Shown in pieces: positions 3,592-11,500 of a stretch of 64,000 nt of DNA. Position 1 is the stretch's first letter. Every line of letters begins with the position of its first letter. The notes below the pieces were generated by a model, which was not told the origin of the DNA, searched no databases, and saw only the letters and a list, made by a program, of their open reading frames with translations. A program made the position numbers and the translations under genes. Origin of the DNA: Exobasidium rhododendri (taxonomy: Eukaryota > Basidiomycota > Exobasidiomycetes > Exobasidiales > Exobasidiaceae); contig CP110630.1 of the NCBI GenBank assembly GCA_026210745.1, positions 6,448,001 to 6,512,000 of the forward strand. Reading direction: 5' to 3'.

Positions 3592-3594
3592 ACT
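3592..3594. repeat. Left target-site duplication (ACT) of the Harbinger element
   Basis: ACT directly precedes the left terminal repeat and is repeated at 8378-8380 directly after the right one. A 3-bp duplication is what PIF/Harbinger transposases make. Confidence 0.8.
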
Positions 3595-3610
3595 AGGGGG
3601 TTTCACGCGT
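3595..3610 (+). repeat. Left terminal inverted repeat of the Harbinger element
   Basis: AGGGGGTTTCACGCGT, identical over 16 bp to the reverse complement of 8362-8377. Similarity stops after this point (TTGCA on the left against ATTCA on the right). Confidence 0.9.
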
Positions 3611-3950
3611 TTGCAACCCGAAACGTGATTTACAGCCAATCGCGTTTAAATTTGAACACCCCACCGATCTCACTTTTTAACTTTGTACAACCATCACCAC
3701 ACCTGGTAAGTGGTAAAAGCTGGCTGACTGTTGTCCTGAGCCTTTTGGGTTAGCTAGAGAGCTTGGGAAGGGTGGAGGGGGCGTCTGGGAGACAGCTGCC
3801 GGGTCCCATTGCCACCTTGGCTCCCTAAAGCTGGCCCAAGAGGTAAAGGGCAACTATTGGCTGGCCGATGGGAGGTGCCAGGAATATGGGAGGTCATGCC
3901 ATTTTTTTTTTTACTGACCATAGGACTTTTCTCTTTGCGCAGCAGCACGC
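3611..3950. other. Left subterminal leader of the element, no gene seen
   Basis: A 340-bp gene-free leader before the dioxygenase ATG. It contains TTTACAGCCA, also found at the right end, a G-rich stretch around 3755-3900 and a T-run at 3902-3912. A pyrimidine tract followed by GCGCAG lies just before the ATG and could be an acceptor of an upstream non-coding exon. I see no coding potential. Confidence 0.4.
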
Positions 3951-5216
3951 ATGCCATTTTACACATCATCAACGCTCACCATCAACAACTTTCATGAAGA
4001 CTGGGCCGACTATCACAGAGCAATGACAAGTCTAAGTATCCGTGATGGATTCAGAAGCTTCAGAAGAGACATGCGAGAGTTTAATTCTGAAGCAGGATCA
4101 GATGCCATTGATGTAGTCGAATGCAACTTCGACTTCACCAAGCTTTATGAAAAGGGTTACTTGAGAGGACGACCATTGACAAACACTCAAGTTCAAGCAT
4201 ACCGTCAAGAAGAGGCAGATGATTACCTTCAAGTATTTTGCAAGGGCGACAGTCATATCATCACTCACCTTGTTGACCAAAACAACGTACACTTTGCTTC
4301 CGTCTGCTGGAAAGGAAATGACACGACTGAAGCAAAGGCAATAGCAACTGCCACCAGCAAGCTTTCTGACAATATCTTTCATTCTGTGGAAGAAAGCCGT
4401 GGCAACTTCACGACTGCTCATGCCAAATTGGAAGGACCAGGCCAAGCAACACCAAGGAACAACGAGGGGGAATATGACTTGTATTACAACAGTCAATTTT
4501 GGAAACATTACAACGATTGGGAAGATTTCCTCACAGAGCCAGCAATTAAACGTCTCAAGCAACGTACTGCAACATTGTTTCACAGATGTTTTCCTCACCA
4601 TGCAAGAGACTACTACAAGGTGGCTTCTCACAGCAAATTTGAAAACATCAAGCCGTGTGGCGGCTTTCTTTGGGGCATCCAGTCTTCTGTGGCTATCAAC
4701 AAGGAAGGAAATTACACTGTCTGCAAGCCTCACCGCGACACCAGTGACTTGGTCACTAGTCTCTGTGCCGTCACACCCTTTGGTGACTTTGATCCAACAG
4801 TCCAGAACTCAGGCTCACTCCTCCTTCATGATGCCTTTGCTTGCATACAATTGAGAGCAGGCGACATCTGCTTCTTTCCGTCTGCTCTTGTTGCACACTC
4901 CAATGATCCAATGGTGAAAGGTCATAGTCGAGGTTCAATTGTTAGTTTCACACACACAAGCCTCTTCCGATTTGTCCATCTTGGCTTCAAGACATTGTCG
5001 GCTTCAACAGCAAAGGAAAAAACAGCGTGGTACAATGCTTGTGAAGATCGTTGGAAGTACTTCTGTGACATCAACACAAAGGGTGATTTGGAATGGGACT
5101 TCCTCTACCAATATGAAGATGACCAGATTGATGAAAGCAACTACAGCGACAAAGATGATGATGTTGATTCTGATGATAACGAAGTTGTAACTGAGAATGA
5201 AGAAGACATGAACTAA
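3951..5216 (+). CDS. TET/JBP-like 2OG-Fe(II) dioxygenase, transposon cargo
   Basis: A single-exon 421-aa protein. The C-terminal half has the double-stranded beta-helix signature of 2-oxoglutarate/Fe(II) dioxygenases: the iron ligands H261 and D263 in CKPHRDTSD, the distal ligand H316 in SALVAHSNDP, and R327 in GHSRGSIVSF for the 2-oxoglutarate carboxylate. The blocks CAVTPFGDF and LRAGDICFFPSALVAH match my memory of the TET/JBP proteins associated with fungal transposons, which oxidise 5-methylcytosine. Residues 1-235 are not recognised. The last 30 residues are very acidic (Asp/Glu), as in chromatin proteins. All catalytic residues are present, so activity is plausible; methylcytosine as substrate is inference. 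It lies wholly inside the transposon, on the same strand as the transposase and 372 bp upstream of it. A prolyl-hydroxylase-type enzyme is the main alternative. Confidence 0.75.
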   Translation: MPFYTSSTLTINNFHEDWADYHRAMTSLSIRDGFRSFRRDMREFNSEAGSDAIDVVECNFDFTKLYEKGYLRGRPLTNTQVQAYRQEEADDYLQVFCKGDSHIITHLVDQNNVHFASVCWKGNDTTEAKAIATATSKLSDNIFHSVEESRGNFTTAHAKLEGPGQATPRNNEGEYDLYYNSQFWKHYNDWEDFLTEPAIKRLKQRTATLFHRCFPHHARDYYKVASHSKFENIKPCGGFLWGIQSSVAINKEGNYTVCKPHRDTSDLVTSLCAVTPFGDFDPTVQNSGSLLLHDAFACIQLRAGDICFFPSALVAHSNDPMVKGHSRGSIVSFTHTSLFRFVHLGFKTLSASTAKEKTAWYNACEDRWKYFCDINTKGDLEWDFLYQYEDDQIDESNYSDKDDDVDSDDNEVVTENEEDMN

Positions 5217-5588
5217 TAGTATTATGATGAATGCGCTTTGCTAGATTCTTCTTGCGTCTAAAGATCCGAGCAAAAACACAAATGTTCGAGCAACAGTGTA
5301 GAAGACACTTTTCATTATTTTCTTAAGTGCTTCAAACCACAAAATATGCTACCTCTGAACTTTTTAAAATGATATCAAACATATCTCTAGCATGGCAGAG
5401 TGACCCACAGTAAGCGTTTATAACTAGGATGCCTGTAAGAGATTTGTTCCAAAAAAGCGTGTGGCAGAGAATTTTTCATTTCATCCATTCGGATGCCTGT
5501 AAGGATTTTATCTTTTGTAGGACAAAATTGAATGACATGAAATATATTCTAGCTCTGTTGCACTCTCTTTGTATCCACACACAGGAGT
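5217..5588. other. Spacer between dioxygenase and transposase genes
   Basis: A 372-bp AT-rich stretch inside the element. It contains GGATGCCTGTAAG (around 5428) and a near copy CGGATGCCTGTAAGG (around 5490), a direct repeat of about 12 bp. Otherwise I see nothing; it may hold the transposase promoter. Confidence 0.3.
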
Positions 5589-7076
5589 ATGGTGCGCCAC
5601 AGTTACCGGCAACAACAGCTATCAGCAGCATACAGCTTTGTGTCATACTTTGTCACTTCTTCACAGCTTCAATATCTTTTGCAAAACAAGATTGCCGTTA
5701 AGTACAATGGCGGGACGTCATGGCCTTCTTCGTATCAAAAAAAAGTAATGGTTGAGATTTTACAAGCTATTCTCCAGACTATTGATGACCTACAGGCAAA
5801 GCGCTACTTCCGCAAACGTATCACTGTCCCAAAGACAGAAAGAATGATTGACAAAGTTGGATACTTTGCAGTACATAACCACCATTGCTACAGAGGATTC
5901 ATGCGCATGACACCAGCAGCATTTGATGACCTTGCTGCACGTCTGAAGAAGACTACGCCTTTTCTTAGGTGTAGCAACAGTACATTACACAAGCGGCTTG
6001 CCGTGGCAATGCACAGGCTAGGCAGGGCAGGAAATGGCGGAAGTGTTCGTGATGTTGCTTCTGCATGCGGCTGTTCAGAGGGTTCCGTCCACAATTGGAC
6101 AAATATGGCTGTTGAGGGGCTTAATGAACTTGCAGCCTCTACAATCTTGTGGGCAAGTGAGTCGGAGCGAGCAGTAGCCAAGAAATGGGTGGCCAACAGA
6201 TGTGGTGTTGATGAGTGGGAGAAGGGCTGGGCAGTGGTAGATGGTACACACATCAACCTTGCATTCAAACCTGGCCAACATCACCGCGAGTACTACAACT
6301 ACAAACGCAACTACTCAATGAATGTTCAATTAGTAATGTTGCCGCATTCACTACGTATCATTGAATGTGTCATTGGCTTTCCAGGTTCTGCACAGGACTC
6401 AAGGGTGTGGGCTGCAGGGAGCAAGGTGTTGCGTAAGCCACGTCTCTATCTAGATGAAGGTGAATTTATCTGGACAGATGGGGGATATGGACATAGCGCT
6501 TTCACACTTGCTCCTTATACAAATAGTAAGGCTTTTGGAGTCAAAGACCTTGCAAGATTCAACTATCAGCAGTCTCGTATCCGTAGTAGAGCAGAACATG
6601 GAATTGCTTATCTCAAGAACCGCTTCCAGGTATTGACAGGATACCGAGGAAATTTATACAGAGAACAAGACGAGATGAACTTTTCGAAAGTGGTTATGGC
6701 ATGCATTGTGGCACATACAATTGCATCGGCACATGATAAAATAGCTAATATTGAGACATGGCTTAATACAGACAACATGGATGGAAGTCTTTTTGAAGGG
6801 GGTCTAGGTGCGGCTGCTGATTTAGAAACAGCTACTGTTTGCGCTGCCCCTCTTATTGACAAAGATCTATTCCTGCATCGACAACAAGCTCAGCAGGCAT
6901 ATGAAGAACAGTCTAATCTTGAGAAGGCACAGAGAGGATCAAGCAGTTTTGATCATCTCAGAAAGCAGAGAGCACTCGATCTTCGAGAGGAGATGCACTT
7001 GGCGCTCTTCGAAGCACATGATTGGGATTTTGTAGACACTGACAAGTCTTCACGCAGGAAAGAGCGTGCTTGCTAA
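5589..7076 (+). CDS. PIF/Harbinger DDE transposase (HARBI1-like)
   Basis: A single-exon 495-aa protein. It is the nuclease of the element and cuts and joins DNA through a DDE active site. A helix-turn-helix-like region (residues about 135-180: RDVASACGCSEGSVHNW) precedes the DDE_Tnp_4-type core. Acidic positions are D218 in VVDGTHI, D270 in FPGSAQDSRVW, D297 in WTDGGYGHS and E336 in RSRAEHGIAYLKNRFQ, the expected spacing for HARBI1/PIF proteins. Length is at the upper end of the family range. The ATG at 5589 is used; later in-frame ATGs would still keep the catalytic core. The C-terminal 120 residues are not recognised. It converges with the Myb/SANT-like gene, with only 14 bp between stops. 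No frameshift or stop interrupts it. Confidence 0.92.
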   Translation: MVRHSYRQQQLSAAYSFVSYFVTSSQLQYLLQNKIAVKYNGGTSWPSSYQKKVMVEILQAILQTIDDLQAKRYFRKRITVPKTERMIDKVGYFAVHNHHCYRGFMRMTPAAFDDLAARLKKTTPFLRCSNSTLHKRLAVAMHRLGRAGNGGSVRDVASACGCSEGSVHNWTNMAVEGLNELAASTILWASESERAVAKKWVANRCGVDEWEKGWAVVDGTHINLAFKPGQHHREYYNYKRNYSMNVQLVMLPHSLRIIECVIGFPGSAQDSRVWAAGSKVLRKPRLYLDEGEFIWTDGGYGHSAFTLAPYTNSKAFGVKDLARFNYQQSRIRSRAEHGIAYLKNRFQVLTGYRGNLYREQDEMNFSKVVMACIVAHTIASAHDKIANIETWLNTDNMDGSLFEGGLGAAADLETATVCAAPLIDKDLFLHRQQAQQAYEEQSNLEKAQRGSSSFDHLRKQRALDLREEMHLALFEAHDWDFVDTDKSSRRKERAC

Positions 7077-7090
7077 AGACAATCTTGAGA

Positions 7091-8155
7091 TCAAGGATTT
7101 GGTGCAGAAAAGTGCTGTTGTTGGGCCCCTCGTGCTAGATCAAATAGAACTTGCATCATGTTTTGTCTTTCCCTTGCCAAGTCTTCTCTTTCTATACGTC
7201 TCTCCTCTTGTGCAAGTTCAATTTTCTTTCTCTCAAAATCCAATTCAAGTTCACGCCTCTTGGTGATCTCACGCTCAACTTCTGCTTGGTGTTTGTATGT
7301 TCCATCCATGGCTTGATGCACGGTGTTTGACATCATTTCCTGCGCTGACATATCTTTCCGTGGCGTGCGTCCACTTGTCTTTCTTTTGGTAGACACTCTT
7401 GTCACGCTGGGACTTCTTGAGGCTTCCATTTGGTCATCCTCATCACCAATGTCCTCCTCGTTGTCTAGCCAAGATGAATGATTGTATTGCAGCCTCTCAG
7501 CTAATGGATCATGCTGAGAAAGATTTATAGAGCTTTCCAGACCAGAAAGACCTCGACCATTCTGCAAGTTGGTATCGCTGTCACTGTCATCCACTACATC
7601 AGCCACATAGGTAGACAAAGGTGGTGCATGCTGCAGAGCCGGCGCATGTGTTTGGCTGTTGCTGCTGCTTGCAACAATGCCGTCAATCTCATTGTCACTA
7701 TCTCCTCCATAGCCAGCACTTGTTATGAGGCTTGTTGGTCCAACATCTTGTCGGTCAACCATCATCTTGTGCCATGTCTCCCACCAGGGCACTTTAAGCA
7801 AAAGATGCTCTCGTTGCGTTCTCAGCTTTGTTCCTGCAGTAAGCTCTTCAAGACGCAACCCTTGTCCTGTCTGGTCAAGTCTATCCCTCTCCTGCTTGTA
7901 AACCTTTTGAAGTGAAGTAATCTTGGATCGAATGCGGTCTGGATAAGCTGATGAAGTGTTGGGCCAAACCTCTCTGTATACACGTCTAAGTAGTGTGGCC
8001 TTGCTTGTTGAGCCAATACGTGTACCTTCTGGATTACGTCCTGGGAGGAGAGCAGCTTGCAAGGCAGGTGAGGTATATAAACAATTGACCAAAGAGTCTA
8101 CTTCTGCATCTTGCCAAACATGTGCGCTGCGGCGTGGACTGTGAGGTGGAATCAT
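7091..8155 (-). CDS. Myb/SANT-like DNA-binding partner of Harbinger transposase
   Basis: A single-exon protein of 354 aa from the ATG at 8155 (an in-frame ATG-less extension reaches 8263). The N-terminal part (residues 10-100) is a Myb/SANT or trihelix-like domain: VWQDAEVDSLVNCLYTSP, then RRVYREVWPNTSSAYPDRIR and KITSLQKVYKQERDRL. In PIF/Harbinger elements the second protein of this type helps bring the transposase to the nucleus and bind the element ends. The middle is acidic and low-complexity, with a basic patch KRKTSGRTPRK. The C-terminus (about residues 290-350) is a highly charged coiled coil (REITKRRELELDFERKKIEL). Its start lies 222 bp from the right end of the element, next to a field of ATCGTGATT repeats. 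Confidence 0.82.
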   Translation of the reverse strand: MIPPHSPRRSAHVWQDAEVDSLVNCLYTSPALQAALLPGRNPEGTRIGSTSKATLLRRVYREVWPNTSSAYPDRIRSKITSLQKVYKQERDRLDQTGQGLRLEELTAGTKLRTQREHLLLKVPWWETWHKMMVDRQDVGPTSLITSAGYGGDSDNEIDGIVASSSNSQTHAPALQHAPPLSTYVADVVDDSDSDTNLQNGRGLSGLESSINLSQHDPLAERLQYNHSSWLDNEEDIGDEDDQMEASRSPSVTRVSTKRKTSGRTPRKDMSAQEMMSNTVHQAMDGTYKHQAEVEREITKRRELELDFERKKIELAQEERRIEREDLARERQNMMQVLFDLARGAQQQHFSAPNP

Positions 8156-8194
8156 GTTATAGGAATTTTTATAGAGGAGATGAATAAGGAAGAC

Positions 8195-8361
8195 GTGAAT
8201 CGCGTTTCGTGCCAAACAGGCTCTTGAAGCTGATTCGAGCCAATCGTGATTGGACTGAATCACGATTCACTTTTTACAGCCAAAAACCACCAACACGTGG
8301 CAAAGTTGAATCGTGATTCACTCGAATCGGGTTTCAAACACGATTCGCCTCAATCGTGAAT
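8195..8361. repeat. Subterminal ATCGTGAT/ATCACGAT repeat field
   Basis: Between the Myb-like gene and the right terminal repeat the motif GAATCGTGATT or its complement AATCACGATTC recurs several times with variants (AATCGTGATTGGACTG, GAATCACGATTCAC, GAATCGTGATTCAC, CACGATTCGCC, CAATCGTGAATA). The left end has only weaker forms (AACGTGATTTACAG, CCAATCGCG). Short repeated subterminal words are typical transposase or Myb-partner binding sites; that role is inference. Confidence 0.6.
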
Positions 8362-8377
8362 ACGCGTGAAACCCCCT
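8362..8377 (-). repeat. Right terminal inverted repeat of the Harbinger element
   Basis: ACGCGTGAAACCCCCT, the exact reverse complement of 3595-3610. Confidence 0.9.
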
Positions 8378-8380
8378 ACT
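8378..8380. repeat. Right target-site duplication (ACT)
   Basis: Matches ACT at 3592-3594. Removing the element and one copy would restore CATACAG-ACT-AGAAG. Confidence 0.8.
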
Positions 8381-8554: not shown

Positions 8555-11500
8555 ATGCCAAAAGCTCGCTTTGTGCGCTCATGGAAGGCGGAGTAAGACG
8601 TGCTGATCGTGTCACTTACTGCATCTTCCCTCCCTTCATATAGAGGCCAGTCGTATACGATTATGCCTCTTCTTCCTCTTCCACGTCTCGAGCAGCTCAG
8701 AGCCGATTTCGCAGTCGCTCTTGCTCTTCAAATAGTTCAGCAAATGCTCAGCAGATTGAGCCTCTTGAGGACGAGATCGAGGCTGACACGACATCAGGCT
8801 CTGTGAATAATCCAGACGAGGGCTCTGCCACCAGCTTTATAGACCACGGTGACGTATTCATGAGTATTTGCGTAAATCGCGAAAGAGTGGGATGCGCCGT
8901 GTATGAATTTGCCAATGGCCGCCTGTCCCTTTTGGAAGATTGTCCGATACAGACAAGGAAGTGTCGCCCCACACTTGAAAGGAGAGAAGACAAGGATGAT
9001 GAAGATCAGTACGAGACCATCTCTGAGAATAGCCCTGAGGCTGCTCAAGCACCAGAATCAAAAGACCAAGCCTCCGAGCTAGTCTCATCAAGTGAGTGGT
9101 GAGGAAAAGAGTGTCAAATCTTGTCTGCTCATCCGAATATCGCATTCAGTGATCCAACGCTTCCGGCCCGATCTCGTTCTGATCAGTAAACGGTGCCCAG
9201 ACGTGGTATCGAGTATAATCATATCTGAACGTAAGGCTTTCCATGCAGATTGGCACACTAATCTAGAAAAGGCACTCATTTCCCGCACTGATTGACTGTA
9301 CATCCCAGTGGCCAAATTGAGTTCCGTCTTGCAGATTCGGCCGGCTAAAGAGTTCAACAAAGATGACGGTCTGGCCAGAATCCTTGACCTGAGATGCCGT
9401 AGCTCTCTTGCAATTCGTGGCGCTTCTACTCCTCTGTACCGTGCTTCACAGATCACATTGAGCACACTGCCTCTTTCGGTAAGTGCAGCTCATGCTCTAC
9501 TCGCACACCTAGAGCGAAGCAGTACTCTCCAACAGAACAAAGACAGCTGTGACCCTCAGACAACACCCACGGTCACCAGCATCGAGTTGATCGCTCTTTC
9601 CGACACTATGTTTGTCAGCGCGGATACTCTCAAGGCGCTTTGCATCTTCGATGAAGAAGATCATGCCGTCAGTCAATTGCAGAGAAGGAAAGAAGGACTG
9701 TCGCTTTTTGGAATATTCGACTGCATACAGACGCCAACGTCTCGCGCTCTGCTTCGTCGCTGGCTTCTATTTCCCAGTCGATCTATCCCGACGCTGGACG
9801 CTCGATTTGATGCAGTAGGCTTGTTTCTCACAGACAAGACTGCGTGCAGACTACTCCGAAATGAGATCAAAGGAGTCAAAAACATAGAGAGATTGTCTTC
9901 TCGTCTCCTCGATGGAAACGCAGATCTTAGCACTTGGAAGGGCATTTCGGACTTTGCGTCCAGGTGTCTCCTCATTCGACGTCACTGTGCTTCCATCGCA
10001 GAGGCAGGACGCGGAGTCCTCATCGTCGAGAAAGTAAACACCATCTTCACTGGTGATCGACTTCGACAAGTACGGCAATCGATAGAAGAAGTCATAGACT
10101 GGGACGAGAGCCGCTTGAGTCAGCGAGTAAGCGTGAGAGCAGGCCTGGATGCCCAATTAGATGAATGGCGTCAAGTCTACACGAATCTACCGTCCATTTT
10201 GCACTCTGTTGCCCTCAGGTTGAGAGACGAGCTAGGCAACAGTCTTCATGCGGCATATCATCTGTATGTCGAATACTTTCCACAGGTAGGCTACCTTCAA
10301 GCCTTGTGTCGCATAGATGGACGTCCGTCAGACGAGAACAGCATACAGGCAGGCGAGGCTATGGGCTGGACTTACCAATACTCCAGCGAGATCAAAGCCT
10401 ACTTTAAGACAAACGAAACAAAGGACTTGGATAGCCAGCTTGGTGACCTCTACTCTTTCATTGCAGGTCGTGAAGTAGAGATGCTGCAAGATCTACACGA
10501 GAGGGTAGCGCAGCATCTGAGCTGGCTAACAGCCTGCAGCGAGATTCTAGCCGAACTTGACTGTCTCTTGGCCTTTGCCTTCGTCGCGGCAAAGAATGGG
10601 TACATTCGCCCGCATATGATAGAGGAACCTTCTCTAGACATCCGCGAAGGTCGTCATCCAATGCAGGAGTTGATAGTGGAAGCGTACGTGCCCAACAGCA
10701 CTGCCCTTGAGGGAGGAAGAGGGCTAGGGGTCGAGGTGGGAGAGGAAGAAGAGAGGTACCACAGCGTGACTGTGGTGACGGGTGCAAACGCTTGTGGCAA
10801 GTCCATCTACCTCAAACAGTGTGCTTTAATAGTGTGCATGGCGCAGATAGGCTCGTTCGTTCCCGCAGAAAGTGCAACAATAGGTGTCGTAGACAAAAGT
10901 GAGTCTCTACTCCTAGTCTGAGACCGCATTCTTCGACCCTACTAATGCGGTCTTATGTCCAGTCTTCACTCGCATGCAGGCCGTCGAGTCGTCCAGCACG
11001 ATGCAGAGCAGCTTCCTCATCGACATGCAACAAGTAAGTCATGCGCTGCAGAGCTGTACTCGCCACTCGCTGCTTCTGCTCGATGAGATGGGAAAGGGCA
11101 CGTCGAGTACCGATGGAGCATCCCTCTTTGCCGCCACGATCAGACACCTGCTAGCAAGAGGCTATCACTGCCCTCGAACTCTCGCTGCCACACACTTCCA
11201 CGAAGTCTTTCACCCCGACCTCCTTCCGGAAGAACTTCCCTTCACGCCGGCGCACATGCAAGTCTTGCTCGGTAGCGATGCCACTAGACTGAAGGAAGAC
11301 ATAACTTTCCTCTACAAGCTTCGATATGGGCTTGAGTTGACGTCGCATGCCACTCAATGTGAGATACTATGCGGTGTTCCTCCTTCCGTGGTGGAAAGAG
11401 CGGCCTACGTTGCTCAATTGTCCCGAGATCACAACCTGGGAGAGCTTCAACTCCGTATCCAAGACGCAATGCAAAGCCAAGACCGACCACGAGACGACGA

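Follow-up and report, generated by a model that had tools for sequence, protein, structure and literature searches.

The main text of Kojima (2025; PMC12730594, December 2025) places TET genes in 11 transposon lineages, including fifteen TET-bearing Harbinger families of rusts. In the account given there, PHISTA, whose hosts are rusts, combines a Harbinger-type DDE transposase and a dioxygenase in one element with a proposed anti-silencing role, encodes a third protein without Myb/SANT and has TA duplications. Nuwa-type and other Harbingers are presented as having a transposase, a Myb/SANT protein and 3-bp duplications, these elements being described as encoding two proteins. CcTET and the Kyakuja-borne AG-type TET of Agaricomycetes are likewise linked to transposons, and CcTET oxidizes 5-methylcytosine (5mC) and N6-methyladenine (6mA). 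Neither Exobasidium nor Ustilaginomycotina is named in that main text, which is also silent on Crypton and tyrosine recombinase.

Here we describe a complete PIF/Harbinger element of 4783 bp from Exobasidium rhododendri (Ustilaginomycotina), which occupies positions 3595-8377 of the 64,000-nucleotide stretch of DNA that was analyzed (hereafter the window; C1:6448001-6512000 of a 17.6 Mb genome). On balance, we lean toward the reading that this is a recently active three-gene Harbinger whose divergent, most likely TET/JBP-type dioxygenase acts in trans to counter both silencing by host methylation and TCG-directed decay. The element resembles PHISTA, as presented in the main text of PMC12730594, in carrying a Harbinger-type transposase and a dioxygenase together and in the role proposed for the latter; it differs in its host, its divergent enzyme, its 3-bp ANT duplications and its Myb/SANT-like open reading frame (ORF). 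With the Nuwa-type and other Harbingers described there it shares a transposase, 3-bp duplications and apparently a Myb/SANT-like protein, and to their two proteins it adds a third, the dioxygenase. It differs from CcTET and the Kyakuja-borne AG-type TET in both element type and enzyme sequence. A preliminary description of the window had assumed that no PIF/Harbinger element with TET cargo was known. The fifteen published rust families overturn this: a TET-bearing Harbinger as such is already known from rusts, and the present case is another lineage and another element type.

The preliminary description had also placed an oxygenase within the element's own boundaries, and this was borne out. 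The 16-bp inverted termini (AGGGGGTTTCACGCGT / ACGCGTGAAACCCCCT) match each other perfectly, where about 0.004 perfect 16-bp inverted pairs per 6 kb are expected by chance (uniform-base estimate), they are flanked by an ACT duplication, and the dioxygenase, transposase and Myb/SANT-like frames are all open in the window copy (Table 1). The transposase matched PF13359 at 75.6 bits (cut-off 24.8), which is the PIF/Harbinger DDE_Tnp_4 type. Target-site duplications across the family were of the 3-bp form ANT (AAT/ATT, ACT or AGT) in 10 of the 11 elements examined, no ANT duplication being visible in the remaining one, the derivative L054; the classical PIF/Harbinger duplication has the form TWA, from which ANT differs. 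The second ORF matched Myb_DNA-bind_4 (PF13837) at 18.2 bits (E 0.0033) against a curated cut-off of 27 bits, and has a 39% identical homologous counterpart in the sister element L052; a Pfam scan gave no Myb match for the sister-family ORF.

Identification of the 421-aa protein as a TET/JBP enzyme is likely but unproven, and draws mainly on comparisons of family profiles. When a profile built from the five-member family was run against 177,635 PDB sequences, the only matches below E 1 were to the Naegleria Tet-like dioxygenase (NgTET; 5cg8 and 4lt5, E 0.071 and 0.098); up to E 10 there were four matches, among which NgTET was the sole 2-oxoglutarate (2OG) enzyme and the other two were unrelated. 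The PHxD, FGxF, GxLxLxD, GDxxFF and distal-histidine positions line up in this alignment; the likeness concerns the pattern of motifs that surrounds HxD and the distal histidine, and comes with an E value of only 0.07. To our knowledge, the Naegleria enzyme is not encoded by a transposon gene. Residues H261, D263 and H316 were invariant across the five aligned rows, a core common to 2OG enzymes generally and not specific to TET, while R327 was present in four of the five and replaced by Q in P0001, the product of a decayed copy. Using hhalign, the motif of the window family was aligned with that of the genome's other TET/JBP-like family (P 2.5e-4, probability 43%). A two-sequence profile of this other family matched NgTET at E 3.2e-5; against PF12851 its members gave E values of 4.9e-4 and 4.3e-3, neither of which reaches the cut-off. 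By inspection, the window enzyme has HxD and not the HxE that is the hallmark of the PE-type transposon TET, and at the offsets of CcTET Gly331 and Asp337 from HxD it has Asp and Cys (ungapped comparison).

Relatives of the enzyme were few. A search of 5.8 billion proteins that reaches only relatives having 5-residue words in common with the query returned two matches at E<=0.01 and three at E<=1, namely the product of the derivative copy L054 of the same genome, the 53% identical metagenomic protein P0002 and a single partial sequence. P0002 has the same HxD and distal histidine as the window protein; its tblastn search against phages gave three weak records (E 0.2-0.6), two annotated as 2OG-Fe(II) oxygenase and one as SNF2 DNA repair protein. 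The window protein itself matched phrog_12057 in PHROGs outside the core (E 0.014) and gave no match in NCBIfam.

Several results weigh against the TET/JBP assignment. The Pfam match of the window protein was to 2OG-FeII_Oxy_3 (PF13640), weak and under the cut-off (E 0.057), and PF12851 (Tet_JBP) did not match it up to E 10 by hmmscan; in a genome search with PF12851 seven other ORFs matched weakly, all under the cut-off, and the window protein was not among them. Searched alone, the protein had no match in PDB up to E 10, and the NgTET match of the family profile (E 0.07) is not significant by itself. From the other TET/JBP-like family, the L059 protein searched alone found only cupins in PDB (E 0.85 and 1.2) and Cupin_2 in Pfam (E 0.0013). 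A subtelomeric relative of the window enzyme was better matched by general 2OG/PKHD-type models (phrog_61, a phage 2OG family, E 5e-6; NF003974, E 5e-4). Two AlphaFold runs (4 and 3 sequences) reached a mean predicted local distance difference test score of 33.7 and 31.4, unusable for fold comparison because there were too few relatives. The TET/JBP-like label of the preliminary description thus stands in part: it finds no backing from PF12851, and a TET enzyme is the best PDB match of the family profile.

It is possible, if unlikely, that the cargo is a general oxygenase of the 2OG-FeII_Oxy_3/PKHD kind that acts on a substrate other than 5mC, such as protein, RNA or DNA that is alkylated or N6-methylated, and benefits the element or its host in some other way. 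The PF13640 match of the window protein, a second one by P0002 (E 0.02, also under the cut-off), the absence of a PF12851 match and the phrog_61 and PKHD-type NCBIfam matches of the subtelomeric relative would all suit such an enzyme, and with three MT-A70 loci in the genome methyladenine is a possible target. Against it stand the position of TET as the sole 2OG enzyme matched by the family profile in PDB and the co-alignment of the motif with that of the genome's other TET/JBP-like family.

We searched the genome for further copies of the element. With up to two mismatches the 16-bp end occurred at 21 places, 18 of them exact (searched with as many mismatches, a backward control pattern occurred at 8), and these resolved into eight elements with both ends exact, two sister elements in which one end is exact, the ends of L054 and one unassigned two-mismatch place. 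The transposase search returned 13 rows from 10 elements and the dioxygenase search 10 rows, comprising the three long copies, L054 and four subtelomeric relatives. The dioxygenase was carried by three of the eight elements with both exact ends and absent from five. The long copies (window, L045 and L049) occupy three sites with their own duplication each and zero substitutions among them. The short copies (L046, L047, L048, L050 and L051) are about 3.2 kb each, and diverge from the long ones by 0.9-1.0% across the shared part. They fall into two deletion classes (Table 1). In both, the start codon of the dioxygenase survives, with 5 and about 13 codons of the gene left, and the gaps begin within the first 14 codons. 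The transposase frame is broken in L051 and, by a G run one base shorter, in L049; L050 has the same change at the same place, and the dioxygenase frame of L045 is broken by a G run that is likewise one base shorter. These run-length changes in L045, L049 and L050 may be assembly errors.

Two further types of element bear on the history of the gene. L054 (G000:C1:413687-415837; 2151 bp), whose product is P0001 (CBS101457_000179, at C1:414 kb), has near-family ends with 1 and 2 mismatches and retains the terminal 214 bp and the dioxygenase, at 94.9% DNA identity in the gene with one stop codon and one gap; its transposase is missing, as is most of its Myb region. It is probably older than the other copies, to judge from its divergence, which is inflated by CpG decay. 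The sister elements L052 and L053 share the 16-bp left end, have AAT and AGT duplications, encode a transposase (56% identical) and a second ORF, and are without a dioxygenase. L052 (3041-6342) and L053 represent a second Harbinger family, and cross-mobilization with the window's family is possible. The gene remnants at two breakpoint pairs, together with retention of the oxygenase by L054, indicate that the gene belonged to the family and was lost at least twice; from these alignments, the dioxygenase appears to predate the present copies and to have been deleted in two lineages. At a deeper level, the gene may have been gained by an ancestor of the window family or lost by the sister family.

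Loss of the gene invites the explanation that it is a passenger, captured from a host or foreign source, functionless for the element and now disappearing. Its deletion from five of eight copies in two classes fits this, as does the broken frame in one of three long copies (L045), where the G-run change could be an assembly error. We regard it as improbable, in view of the conserved HxD and distal histidine in the 53% identical P0002 found elsewhere, a ratio of nonsynonymous to synonymous substitution of about 0.3 between the window and diverged L054 dioxygenases (0.036/0.116 over 419 codons, a value distorted by CpG decay), and the presence of TET/JBP-like genes in unrelated repeats of the same genome. 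Insertion of a separate dioxygenase gene into one Harbinger copy, a nested structure that the preliminary description had offered as the competing case, is very improbable: copies without the gene do exist, as do sisters without it (L052 and L053, pointing to an older gain or a loss in the sisters), but the short copies lack it through internal deletion that left gene remnants at two differing breakpoint pairs, and L054 holds it within family-type ends. For the present copies these deletion scars rule nesting out, leaving just an older gain.

Table 1. Features of the E. rhododendri Harbinger element and deletions in its shorter copies (window coordinates)
Feature	Position	Strand	Basis
Left target-site duplication, ACT	3592..3594		sequence
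Left 16-bp terminal inverted repeat	3595..3610	+	exact end found 18 times in genome, both ends counted
Possible 5'-untranslated-region intron of dioxygenase transcript, GTAAGT...GCGCAG (putative)	3707..3942	+	splice-like sequence, by eye
421-aa 2OG-Fe(II) dioxygenase ORF, ATG at 3951	3951..5216	+	ORF; by inspection HxD = H261/D263, distal H316, likely 2OG-binding R327
PIF/Harbinger DDE transposase frame, first ATG at 5589	5586..7076	+	PF13359 (DDE_Tnp_4), E 4.4e-21
354-aa Myb/SANT-like second Harbinger protein	7091..8155	-	PF13837, E 0.0033, under cut-off
Subterminal inverted repeat of 27 nt (85% complementary), a candidate site of protein binding	8248..8328		sequence
Right 16-bp terminal inverted repeat	8362..8377	-	sequence
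Right target-site duplication, ACT	8378..8380		sequence
Deletion in L047, L048 and L050	3966..5551		breakpoints of L047, common to L048 and L050 in alignment
Different deletion in L046 and L051	3991..5573		alignment

The host encodes candidate methylation enzymes. A DNMT5-like frame of 2287 aa matched PDB 7r76 (titled 'DNA repair protein Rad8', which we take to be Cryptococcus Dnmt5) at E 1.3e-125, and a DNMT1-like gene was found in pieces, in frames with a best E of 7e-12. The element copies also carry a pattern of C-to-T decay. Among 22 polarized C-to-T changes between copies, 13 were at CpG and 9 at TCG, against background shares of cytosines of 13.5% and 3.0% (binomial p 7e-7 and 8e-9; window, L047 and L051 haplotypes, majority polarization, sites taken as independent). 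Between the dioxygenase genes of L054 and the window, 42 sites had T in L054 and C in the window, 11 had the opposite arrangement and 10 were transversions; L054 had T at 13 of the 21 TCG and 24 of the 64 CpG of the window gene, against 18 other such sites. The observed/expected ratio of TCG was 1.15 in the remainder of the window from position 9000 and 0.87 in the element; for L054 it was 0.40 and for L052, in a stretch that took in about 0.46 kb of flank, 0.46. With only its dioxygenase kept and its strong TCG/CpG decay, the non-autonomous L054 is a record of mutation resembling repeat-induced point mutation in an Exobasidiomycete. The main text of PMC12730594, citing others, notes that repeats undergo TCG hypermutation in Pucciniomycotina, Puccinia and Microbotryum among them.

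Demethylation of DNA to counter silencing offers the best mechanism, because the host has DNMT5-like and DNMT1-like genes and its element copies show strong TCG/CpG decay. The transposase and the Myb/SANT-like protein would move the element into ANT sites, and the third protein, if expressed and active in the nucleus, would oxidize methylated cytosine in the element's DNA, which may limit both methylation-based silencing and TCG-directed decay. Acting in trans, the enzyme of the long copies could be shared by copies without the gene, much as non-autonomous elements depend on a transposase supplied by others. The preliminary description had suggested a self-demethylating transposon; this may be so, now with better circumstantial support from the methyltransferases and the TCG/CpG decay. 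Two observations count against such a role. Three of the five short copies have zero substitutions among them (one with a 1-bp indel), and such recent, near-identical copies without the gene imply that recent movement did not require the dioxygenase in cis. In the shared part, the enzyme-bearing long haplotype has 200 CpG and 45 TCG and the short copies 184-190 CpG and 36-40 TCG, the direction expected if the enzyme protected CpG in copies bearing it, and not significant (paired tests, p 0.057 and 0.18; three lineages).

A contrast is offered by related fungi. In a transposase search that scored just the 8000 candidates having the most words in common with the query, the relatives named outside Exobasidium among the 40 matches listed came only from Ustilago, Sporisorium and Tilletia (35-54% identical), and no dioxygenase relative turned up there in the search needing 5-residue words in common. 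A tree of 28 of the 40 matches (>=370 aa) and the window and L052 transposases, with no PHISTA or Nuwa references included, grouped the two Exobasidium families and metagenomic P0006 apart from the remaining rows. Ustilago maydis is reported in PMC13297926 and PMC7862722 to be without DNA methyltransferases, and a methylation level of 2.26% by high-performance liquid chromatography is given in the latter. That Ustilago has relatives of the transposase, a reported lack of methyltransferases in U. maydis, and no dioxygenase relative turned up in these searches is a single contrast and suggestive only. The literature found on Exobasidium and DNA methylation was concerned with tea plants.

Other repeats of the genome bear TET/JBP-like genes as well. 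A repeat that we take to be Crypton-like, from motifs judged by eye in a repeat known here from one end, exists in six near-identical copies (L059-L064, including G000:C1:2816742-2820356; 99.8-100% across about 2.5 kb), in which a 308-aa TET/JBP-like gene adjoins a tyrosine-recombinase-like frame. This frame is 678 aa long in six of seven copies and 643 aa in one, weakly matched GCR1_C (E 0.0067) and Phage_int_SAM_1 (E 0.072), both under the cut-off, and had no match in PDB. Each of the seven recombinase matches lies no more than 1.4 kb from a dioxygenase match. In the seventh copy (G000:C1:988776-992146) a 99% identical recombinase stands beside a dioxygenase of 54% identity, which suggests cargo exchange. 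L065 (G000:C1:4229421-4230215) is a single-copy 265-aa TET/JBP-like ORF (PF12851 E 0.0043, under the cut-off) that adjoins an ORF of 411 aa whose product has a SWIM zinc finger and is possibly a Mutator-like (MULE) transposase. L055-L058 are copies of a subtelomeric repeat that lies beside TTAGGG arrays at both ends of C1 and the left ends of C2 and C3; it encodes a 402-aa oxygenase that has 36-38% identity to the window enzyme across about 110 aa. The repeat also contains a large ORF (605 aa in L058), for which no Pfam match exceeded the cut-off. Tentatively, E. rhododendri could add another hot spot to the three fungal lineages of Kojima, one in which unrelated mobile or repeat DNA (a Myb-type Harbinger with a new, fourth enzyme type, a Crypton-like element, a gene beside a SWIM ORF and the subtelomeric repeat found at four contig ends) is armed with methyl-DNA oxygenases against a system of TCG-directed methylation and mutation. 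No literature was found joining Cryptons with methylcytosine dioxygenases or TET-bearing transposons with Ustilaginomycotina; Crypton, TET and dioxygenase occurred together only in a weevil genome paper.

Two genes border the window element: a minus-strand HisG gene, which matches PF01634 at E 1.4e-31, and a plus-strand member of the MutS family (PF05192, E 2.4e-28). The apparent start codon of HisG (ATP phosphoribosyltransferase), judged by eye, is at about 3507 on the minus strand, which puts the element about 90 bp upstream.

Should the enzyme remove methylcytosine, transposons would be seen to have recruited such enzymes in a third basidiomycete subphylum, the Ustilaginomycotina, and in more element classes, perhaps including one moved by a tyrosine recombinase. 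Since a small genome of 17.6 Mb holds enzyme-bearing, enzyme-less and decayed copies, protection in cis versus in trans from methylation and TCG mutation is directly testable in one strain.

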